Part shown: in pieces, positions 49,645 through 51,824 of the stretch
How positions within the stretch are numbered: the stretch's first letter is position 1
Layout of the letters: every line of letters starts with the position of its first letter
Assembly: GCA_028279405.1 (NCBI GenBank)
Contig: JANQNU010000088.1
Span: forward strand, 62,001 to 126,000
From: Phycisphaerae bacterium
Lineage (GTDB): Bacteria > Planctomycetota > Phycisphaerae > UBA1845 > Fen-1342
Length of the DNA: 64,000 bases
Direction of reading: 5' to 3'
The notes under the pieces: generated by a model
Databases searched by the model: none
What the model saw: the letters and a program-made list of their open reading frames with translations, nothing else
Told to the model about the DNA's origin: nothing
Made by a program: the position numbers and the translations under genes

Positions 49645-49677
49645 AAAAAAGGGCGCCTCACGAATGAGGGGCCCTTT
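49645..49677 (-). terminator. Intrinsic terminator of the small-peptide operon
   Basis: On the minus strand the 9-bp arms GGGCCCCTC / GAGGCGCCC (one C-C mismatch) flank a 6-nt loop and are followed by six T. It lies 32 bp after the last peptide stop. Confidence 0.82.
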
Positions 49678-49708
49678 CTGATGATTGCCGATGTCGGAGA
49701 CCGTGCCC

Positions 49709-49828
49709 TTACGTGGCGAGGGCGAAGGTCGGGCCGACGTTGGCGATGTTCGGCAGGCAGTTGAACGCACCGAGGGCCAGCGTGCAGCCGACGGTGAAGA
49801 TCACCAGCAAGGTAGCCTTACGATTCAT
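49709..49828 (-). CDS. Small hydrophobic Cys peptide 4 (39 aa)
   Basis: It opens MNRKATLLVIFTVGCTLALG and continues AFNCLPNIANVGPTFALAT. GGAG lies 8 nt before ATG 49828. It shares with its three neighbours the basic start, an ~18-residue hydrophobic stretch and a Cys-Leu near residue 24. It has an extra Cys in the hydrophobic part and the shortest tail, so it is the most divergent member. It could be a lipoprotein precursor or a membrane peptide. It is the last gene of the operon. Confidence 0.7.
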   Translation of the reverse strand: MNRKATLLVIFTVGCTLALGAFNCLPNIANVGPTFALAT

Positions 49829-49943
49829 GTTTCTTACTCCGTCTTGACTCCGACGACGAGTCGTCGAAGCGAGTGGTTCTATGCCGTGACACAACCCGGA
49901 CTACCCGGCCAAGCCGGGCCGCCGGGGATCTCTCAGATTGTTC

Positions 49944-50114
49944 TTAGCCGAAGAGCTCTTCCTGCAGAACGTCGAGCGCGACGTTGAGCACGCGGTTTTC
50001 CGCCGGGAAGCCGCTGTTGAAGAGGCCTTGCCAGAAGCTGCCGAGGCAACCGTTCTGAAAGAGGGTCGCGCCGCCGAACGCCATCGCGCCCAAAGTGAGC
50101 CATTTCTTATTCAT
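49944..50114 (-). CDS. Small hydrophobic Cys peptide 3 (56 aa)
   Basis: It opens MNKKWLTLGAMAFGGATLFQ then NGCLGSFWQGLFNSG and a longer amphipathic tail (RVLNVALDVLQEELFG). GAGGAG lies 6 nt before ATG 50114. It is the clearest family member: Lys-Lys-Trp-Leu start, LFQ before Gly-Cys-Leu. The tail resembles short planctomycete proteins predicted as lipoproteins, but the residue at -3 from Cys (Gln) is not a good lipobox. The start could extend to 50171 only with residues unlike the other copies. Confidence 0.75.
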   Translation of the reverse strand: MNKKWLTLGAMAFGGATLFQNGCLGSFWQGLFNSGFPAENRVLNVALDVLQEELFG

Positions 50115-50194
50115 TTGCTTCTCCTCAAGCCGTTGCGTTGCAAAGCCGGTCCATGAGACGGAACCGAGCAACCGTTACGGTGTTTGTCGAACGA

Positions 50195-50350
50195 TTAGTC
50201 AATGCCCGTCAGGACCAGGGTCGTGCCGACCGCGTCGCCGAGGAAGCGGAGGAACGCATTCGCACCGCCACCGTCGCCGCAGCCGAAGAACTGGAACAAC
50301 GCAGCGCCCGAGACAGCACTCAGGAGCCAGAGCTTTGCTTTGGTCTTCAT
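50195..50350 (-). CDS. Small hydrophobic Cys peptide 2 (51 aa)
   Basis: Start at ATG 50350 (MKTKAKLWLLSAVSGAALFQ) with GGAG 9 nt upstream; ATG 50365 is possible. After LFQFFGCGDGGGANAF comes a helical tail (LRFLGDAVGTTLVLTGID). It shares LW-L near the start and LFQ...GC with peptide 3. The Gly-rich segment after Cys could be a flexible linker. Confidence 0.75.
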   Translation of the reverse strand: MKTKAKLWLLSAVSGAALFQFFGCGDGGGANAFLRFLGDAVGTTLVLTGID

Positions 50351-50404
50351 CTTCAGAATCTCCATCGATTTACTTGTTTCCACTACGCTACGCCCGGGGG
50401 CACC

Positions 50405-50533
50405 TTAGTCGAACAGGACGGCGACCAGGGCGCGCTGCACCCAGGCGTTCAGGCAGCCGGAATCAAGACCGAACTGCATCACCATACCAGTCGTCAGGAA
50501 CAAAGCGCCCTTCATCCAGAGCTTCTTGCTCAT
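50405..50533 (-). CDS. Small hydrophobic Cys peptide 1 (42 aa), first gene of the operon
   Basis: It opens MSKKLWMKGALFLTTGMVMQ then FGLDSGCLNAWVQRALVAVLFD. A near-perfect AAGGAGG lies 7 nt before ATG 50533, stronger than for most large genes here, so heavy translation is expected. It shares the KK-LW start and Gly-Cys-Leu with the others. The gap to the next gene is 54 bp; later gaps are 80 and 115 bp. Confidence 0.78.
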   Translation of the reverse strand: MSKKLWMKGALFLTTGMVMQFGLDSGCLNAWVQRALVAVLFD

Positions 50534-50625
50534 TCTGAGCCTCCTTCAAGAGAAACTCACCTTTGACCTCGTTCGGCCGTTGAACGACTGGCATCGCGCC
50601 AACCCATGCCGAACACCCAACCAAA

Positions 50626-50654
50626 ATTCAAACGGCCAAAACATCGTTTGTAAA
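50626..50654 (-). promoter_or_regulatory. Predicted promoter of the small-peptide operon
   Basis: On the minus strand TTTACA (50654-50649, 5 of 6) and TTGAAT (50631-50626, 4 of 6) are 17 bp apart, 93 bp before the first peptide start and beyond the end of mtnA. The rest of 50534-50738 shows nothing else. Confidence 0.5.
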
Positions 50655-50738
50655 GCGTGTGCTGTGCGCAGACCGAACACAAACGAAATTGACCGCGCCA
50701 AAATTTGTCGTGGCAGTGTACGGGTTCCGACCTCGGTT

Positions 50739-51824
50739 TCAAGGGGCATTCCGGAAAATTTCCCCGATCTCTGCCTCCGAAACCGCTCCCGAGACCCCTT
50801 TTTCCGTGATTATTCCGCGAATCAAGCGGGCCGGGGTCACGTCAAATGCCGGATTGAAGCAGCTCACGCCGTCCGGAACGGTCGTCCGTCCACACCCCGC
50901 GGCAACCTCGTCGCGGCCGCGCTCCTCGATCGGAATGCCGCTGCCGCTCGCGAGCGACAGGTCGAATGTGCTGCGCGGTGCGGCAACATAGAACGGAATA
51001 TCGTGATGGTGCGCAAGCACGGCGAGCCCGTACGTGCCGATTTTGTTGGCCGTGTCGCCGTTGGCGGCGATCCGATCCGCACCGACGATCACCAAATCCA
51101 CGCGACCAGCCGCCATCAGGGCGCCGGCGGCGTTGTCGCAAAGAACGTGGACGTCGATACCGGCCGCCTGCAATTCGAACGCCGTCAGCCGGGCACCCTG
51201 TAACAGCGGGCGCGTCTCGTCGGCATAGACCCGAAACCGTTTCCCCTGCTCGTGCGCCACATACATCGCCGACAGCGCTGTCCCGTAGGCGCTGGTCGCG
51301 AGCGCGCCGGCGTTGCAGTGCGTCAGCACCGTGCCGCCGTCTGGAATGAGGGTCGCCCCGTGCTCGCCAATCCGCCGACACGTCGCGGCGTCTTCATCCG
51401 CAATCTGCCGAGCCTCCGCCAGCAACGCGTCCCAGACCGCTTCCGAATCGCGATCAGGCTCTTCCGACGCCGCGCGCTGAAGACGATTCACGGCCCAGGC
51501 CAGGTTCACGGCGGTGGGTCGCGACCCGATCAGGTAAGCGGCAACCCGCTCGGCAGCCGCATCGAACTCGCTTCGATCGGATTGGCGCTGATCGCGTAAC
51601 CCGATGCAGAATCCGTACGCCGCCGCAACGCCGATCGCCGGCGCCCCGCGCACCCGCAACACCTTGATCGCTTCCCAAACCGTCTCCACGTCATCGCAGT
51701 CGATATACTCGACCCGCGTGGGCAACAATGTCTGATCCAGCAATCGCAGGCAACCGTCAGCCCCCCCAACCCACTCGATCGCCTTCGGAACCGCTCCCGC
51801 AACAGAGTCGGTCGTTAGCGGCAT
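50739..51824 (-). CDS. mtnA: S-methyl-5-thioribose-1-phosphate isomerase
   Basis: 361 aa. Family motifs are VLRVRGAPAIGVAAAYG, the catalytic Cys in VLTHCNAGALATSAYG, VYADETRPLLQGARLTAFEL and the catalytic Asp in VIVGADRIAANGDTANKIGTY. It isomerises methylthioribose-1-phosphate to the ribulose form in methionine salvage. Other salvage genes are absent here; it is the last gene of a run with pgmB-like, GH65 and archease genes. The C-terminal extension past PARLIRGIITE is slightly long. Confidence 0.95.
   Translation of the reverse strand: MPLTTDSVAGAVPKAIEWVGGADGCLRLLDQTLLPTRVEYIDCDDVETVWEAIKVLRVRGAPAIGVAAAYGFCIGLRDQRQSDRSEFDAAAERVAAYLIGSRPTAVNLAWAVNRLQRAASEEPDRDSEAVWDALLAEARQIADEDAATCRRIGEHGATLIPDGGTVLTHCNAGALATSAYGTALSAMYVAHEQGKRFRVYADETRPLLQGARLTAFELQAAGIDVHVLCDNAAGALMAAGRVDLVIVGADRIAANGDTANKIGTYGLAVLAHHHDIPFYVAAPRSTFDLSLASGSGIPIEERGRDEVAAGCGRTTVPDGVSCFNPAFDVTPARLIRGIITEKGVSGAVSEAEIGEIFRNAP

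Follow-up and report, generated by a model that had tools for sequence, protein, structure and literature searches.

Small lipoproteins of the Sec/SPII pathway include Lpp and entericidin. Lineage-specific families of unknown proteins with conserved neighbourhoods also form a known category, the FESNov families (PMC10849945), and in the GMSC small-protein catalogue (PMC11364881) most conserved families are without annotation; the main text of the GMSC paper does not contain the word Planctomycetes. The set of small proteins described here (p1 to p6) gave no match at gathering or curated cut-off in Pfam, NCBIfam or Rfam, its array had no match in a plasmid collection, and our literature search found no description of this ordered multi-family island.

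The first four genes of this set lie in the window, by which we mean the whole 64-kb stretch of DNA that was analysed, where they follow mtnA on the minus strand. The features are as follows, in the direction of transcription:

50739..51824, minus strand: mtnA, S-methyl-5-thioribose-1-phosphate isomerase / IF-2B family (Pfam PF01008, E=6e-89), the conserved gene upstream of the island
50715..50742, minus strand: unit 1 promoter TTGAAA-16-TACACT from the promoter scan, overlapping the mtnA end
50691..50699, minus strand: conserved leader block GGCGCGGTC, lying about 15 nt past the -10 element
50405-50533, minus strand: p1, 42 aa, MSKKLWMKGALFLTTGMVMQFGLDSGCLNAWVQRALVAVLFD; consensus ...GGGCLxAVVQRILVAVxFD
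50195-50350, minus strand: p2, 51 aa; consensus ...C...RFLGDLxGDAxxLxxID
49944-50114, minus strand: p3, 56 aa; consensus ...GGATLFxxGCLGxFWxGFxNTGWPxxNRWLNxAIDVLxEELFG
49709-49828, minus strand: p4, 39 aa; consensus ...LxxGxxxALGxNCxPNIG; the least conserved of the set
49650..49674 (49669-49656 in the scan), minus strand: unit 1 intrinsic terminator, a CCTCATTCGTGAGG stem and then a T-run

An earlier note on this DNA had described four minus-strand ORFs of 42, 51, 56 and 39 aa, and all were found at these lengths, each with the Shine-Dalgarno sequence, basic N-terminus, hydrophobic stretch and Cys attributed to it. Gly at -1 of the Cys in p1-p3 and Leu at +1 in p1, p3 and p4 were likewise as described. 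When the 64-kb window was scanned for Shine-Dalgarno-led ORFs combining a basic N-terminus, a hydrophobic stretch and a Cys, the only hits under the strict filters were array ORFs, three of the four (p2-p4), with p1 failing the strict hydrophobicity filter. Shuffled controls (n=40) of the same scan gave a mean of 0.025 hits and a maximum of 1, so the three hits in the window are not a matter of chance. p1-p4 are real genes.

The terminator proposed to follow p4 was found both by the scan and in the sequence. The promoter-like pair proposed upstream corresponds to a conserved promoter, but this lies at 50742-50715, outside the range 49645-50654 to which the pair had been assigned; when 21 mtnA-p1 spacers are aligned, most keep it as TTGNAA/TANACT. 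With their own promoter and terminator, p1-p4 make up one four-gene transcription unit (unit 1), as had been supposed, and the promoter position gives this unit a 5' leader of about 170-180 nt. The core of the leader block is nearly invariant across 21 loci (the window and 20 others) from four families, reading GCGCGGCC in f3 and f4. The block may base-pair with a GRCCG motif that follows some 60 nt later. A structured RNA leader was considered and not adopted: the leader shows six consistent pairs, with practically no covariation. A regulon search with the promoter plus the block in 8 genomes gave non-array hits no commoner than those of a reversed-pattern control, and the block alone showed no enrichment within the window. 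It is possible that the block is an RNA element or a regulator site.

In relatives the genes are arranged as mtnA, p1, p2, p3, p4, p5, p6 and sometimes p7, the order p1-p6 being fixed across different genera and families. Their lengths are about 70 aa for p5 and 90 aa for p6. A second conserved promoter (CTTGAT-like/TATACT) precedes p5 in about 25 loci and is retained at two loci where p5-p6 sit apart from p1-p4, and the p4-p5 gap has a T-rich terminator-like stretch in several loci; the island thus consists of two transcription units. The genomes G000 (that of the window), G001 and G026 have p5-p6 apart from p1-p4. Since in G000 they are located on another contig, the window contains half of what is a complete island in most relatives, and the earlier description of a self-contained operon does not hold: in most relatives p1-p4 are part of mtnA-p1-p4-p5-p6(-p7). 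Outside the window's family, some f6 and f3 genomes carry mtnA-p1-p4-p5-p6, and f7 and f8 have mtnA-p5-p6, the loci examined in these two families showing no p1-p4. Several genomes carry a reduced p1-p4 set; all that stands for unit 1 in G008 and G009 is one 47-aa peptide, encoded between mtnA and p5 (L148 5931-6074 and L129 5368-5511). In G026, a UPF0236 protein (PF06782) is encoded directly behind p4 (L141 3449-4777, minus strand), and this gene is possibly related to the separation of p1-p4 from p5-p6 there.

The p7 gene codes for a signal-plus-Cys peptide of 50-60 aa behind p6 in families f2, f6 and f7 (frequent in the last two); its consensus resembles LLQxxGCxxxxxPxLLSxxESxxLSxLLGG. In family f1, genes for a secreted PQQ_2/TPR protein of 1400-1500 aa and a squalene-cyclase-like (SQHop_cyclase-like) protein are often found behind p6. 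A functional tie to this pair was considered and set aside because the pair was seen behind p6 only in f1 and is unlinked in G000, where it is on another contig (C23). Examples of both are:

L137 6422-6583, L216 5592-5753, L234 5600-5761 and others: p7
L157 931-6506, L144 8020-13596, L168 10356-15770: PQQ_2/TPR and cyclase-like pair behind p6

Conservation of the island genes extends to individual residues. p3 is present in about 20 of the 27 genomes of the window's family, with clear matches at 48-75% identity, and also occurs in families f3, f4 and f6. K8, G26, C27, L28, Q33 and R34 are invariant in the p1 alignment (16 loci), as are C24, G38 and D39 in that of p2 (18 loci); in the p4 alignment (16 loci) the Cys position is shifted in some members. 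The tails are conserved position by position, for example QR...(F/I)D in p1, GD..GD in p2 and D..xEELFG in p3. The synonymous-biased conservation that was looked for across relatives is present, with pN below pS in each of p1-p4: between the window and its nearest relative (L003) pS/pN is 0.43/0.15 for p1 and 0.53/0.15 for p3, and the medians are 0.58/0.39 for p2 and 0.58/0.44 for p4, the weakest of the six families. pN lies below pS throughout p1-p6 (medians pS 0.57-0.69, pN 0.32-0.44), a codon pattern which indicates that purifying selection acts on all six families. This pattern and the conserved C-terminal residues run against the reading of the array as a non-coding transcript, or as leader peptides without protein function, which the long spacers and a possibly structured leader might otherwise suggest; we consider that reading extremely improbable, p4 being the weakest case against it.

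p6 was found in 97 of the 114 genomes of the order, in one copy each and in all 8 families, with a profile that included distant members and among MAGs of mixed completeness; a second p6 piece in G006 is a contig-end fragment. The p6-matched loci are from Phycisphaerae / Planctomycetota MAGs, and in a 392-genome sample of the phylum, in which fewer candidates were scored per genome, G000 was the sole match. By tblastn, 48 of 65 loci from the order have mtnA upstream of p6, in the same orientation and no more than 3.2 kb away; the figure is 48 of the 60 testable ones once contig-end-cut loci without a hit are excluded. This linkage, together with the conserved Cys and with mtnA genes of other orders lacking such neighbours, could be explained if the peptides were redox, thiol or metal-handling accessories tied to MtnA and hence to sulfur salvage. 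However, units 1 and 2 are each under their own promoter, the exported look of the peptides is at odds with the cytosolic location expected of MtnA, and the other orders have mtnA without the peptides (at ten loci sampled from the class outside this order, no comparable small genes stand behind mtnA), making such a role quite unlikely.

The same distribution bears on two further readings. Tiny hydrophobic peptides in series could form a multi-component bacteriocin or toxin set, as the earlier note had proposed among other candidates, and the small size, exported appearance, diverse tails and conserved C-terminal ends would also suit secreted signalling peptides, several small messages being released from one array. 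For the former we identified mtnA, the PQQ_2/TPR protein, the SQHop_cyclase-like protein and others as neighbours, and no transporter, modification or immunity gene was recognised beside the island among the profiled flanking ORFs. This, the lack of a match in the plasmid collection and the near-universal single-copy inheritance across the order make a toxin or bacteriocin set very improbable. For the latter, one weak Phr_nterm match (E=0.057) is confined to residues 1-19, and at 13.9 bits TIGR04429 stays below its cut-off of 25, so the peptides do not qualify as Phr-type. Their tails are conserved across genera, unlike varying pherotypes, their Cys is conserved and no adjoining receptor or sensor gene was recognised among those profiled ORFs; taken with the single-copy, order-wide conservation, this leaves signalling improbable as well.

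At the sequence level, the members of the island share only an export-signal-like N-terminus and the Cys, and their products differ. In hhalign comparisons the N-terminal segments matched with probabilities of mostly 68-95% among p1, p2, p3 and p5, the p4-p5 and p4-p6 similarities being weak, whereas every pair of post-Cys parts gave a probability below 4%. That the tails beyond the Cys differ, as the note had remarked, was therefore borne out, but its picture of repeated duplication of one gene was not, because the likeness is confined to the signal-like segment. Short hydrophobic signals readily look alike, so this shared segment does not prove common ancestry. The end-of-signal Cys is kept in 57 of 57 p6 and 41 of 42 p5 sequences in the order-wide alignment, and exactly four further Cys are present in 35 of the 42 p5 and 36 of the 57 p6; four Cys can pair with one another, which would leave the signal Cys free for anchoring. 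Of the small signal-plus-Cys ORFs in about 0.9 Mb of sequence from G000 and G007, 5 of 7 and 5 of 5, respectively, belong to the island, so this style is not common across these genomes. A possible exception was noticed by eye in G026, where two tiny ORFs that are not linked to the island form a pair of much the same style (MNYKTKVRKLLAYAVSGGVLLQTATCDTNQ... and MRRQHRLWFRLYASAAAAMALGGCVTDPQ...):

L188 ~960-1352 (G026:C1 near 3211122), minus strand: second tiny-ORF pair of G026, near a chance-like promoter-pattern hit

Very small lipoproteins were among the candidates of the note. The array proteins have the basic n-region, hydrophobic h-region and Cys of Sec/SPII lipoproteins, and LspA (PF01252 over cut-off) is encoded in 6 of 6 genomes tested. 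The lipobox, tested as [LVI][ASTVIG][GAS]C, is as weak as had been noted: the canonical form occurs in just 12 of 114 array proteins (p1 1/17, p3 1/19, p4 0/17, p5 0/21, with uncertain counts for p6, some of whose members carry another Cys ahead of this one), compared with 7 of 14 in a small set of long lipoprotein-like ORFs from two genomes. The array proteins are thus not canonical lipoproteins, judging by this motif, and may still work like them. The main rival explanation is that they are uncleaved single-pass membrane mini-proteins, whose hydrophobic stretch stays in the membrane and whose outer-edge Cys is disulfide-bonded to another subunit or to a partner protein and carries no lipid. 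The poor lipobox and the residue before the Cys of p4, usually Asn, would fit this, as would the N-terminal helix predicted by AlphaFold2 with low confidence at residues 4-20 of p3 and 4-24 of p6. But Gly directly at -1 of the Cys in 17/17 p1, 18/19 p3 and 16/21 p5 resembles a processing site, LspA is present, and the first Cys of p5 and p6 is, by Cys parity, the one left over, so that we regard uncleaved mini-proteins as rather unlikely.

Our proposed explanation is that p1-p4 represent unit 1 of an island that is inherited vertically and encodes exported mini-proteins. Each precursor would be targeted by a short N-terminal signal, basic and hydrophobic, which runs up to the conserved Cys, and the Cys would most likely become a membrane anchor by being modified much as in lipoproteins, at a relaxed recognition site. 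Outside the inner membrane there would then remain a distinct tail in p1-p4, of about 10-35 residues, and a four-cysteine module of about 40-70 residues, probably disulfide-bonded, in p5 and p6, with p1-p6 acting as different subunits of a single small envelope assembly specific to the order. The tails are mutually unrelated, each has its own conserved positions, and the genes stay together in a fixed order; from this we infer different subunits and not gene copies. That the island encodes Cys-anchored exported subunits of a lineage-specific envelope assembly is, on these sequence features, a proposition for which we see the chances as evenly balanced. Counted against this explanation are the mostly absent canonical lipobox, the lack of a confident AlphaFold2 fold for p3 or p6 alone (pLDDT 60 and 54), and the p1-p4 genes being reduced or unseen in some genomes. 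Amphipathic-helix membrane binding by the C-termini was rejected, since p1 and p2 do not exceed shuffled sequences in hydrophobic moment and p3 does so only weakly, and one considered assembly mechanism is thereby removed. The two units are far apart in G000, G001 and G026, hence linkage is not needed if they contribute to a single complex. The families probably have a cell-envelope role particular to this Phycisphaerae group. The fuller version, an undescribed order-defining envelope system in which unlike Cys-anchored mini-proteins with a non-canonical lipobox form one assembled structure, is put forward tentatively, as somewhat less probable than not.

Four tiny ORFs have thus led to an island kept across a planctomycete order that is known here mainly from metagenome assemblies, with families absent from Pfam and NCBIfam. 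Lipidation of the proteins, if it occurs, would suggest that the lipobox is relaxed in this lineage; assembly, if it occurs, would make them a lineage-specific envelope component in a phylum known for its unusual cell envelopes. The link to mtnA and the single-copy, order-wide p6 offer testable handles, with p6 as a marker gene.

Compared with known systems, the island resembles bacterial Sec/SPII lipoproteins in its basic N-termini, hydrophobic stretches and Cys, in the -1 Gly of p1, p3 and p5 and in the presence of LspA, and differs from them in mostly being without a canonical lipobox, in its six unlike products and in having no detected sequence match. GMSC (PMC11364881) is a catalogue and not a system description, and may well include such smORFs. 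The island is similar to the FESNov families (PMC10849945) in consisting of unknown families that cover much of a single clade, are under purifying selection and sit in a conserved neighbourhood, although p6 coverage, at 85% (97/114) in MAGs of mixed completeness, lies below the FESNov criterion of at least 90% clade coverage with 100% specificity. Unlike those families, it is a whole ordered set of small families under two promoters.
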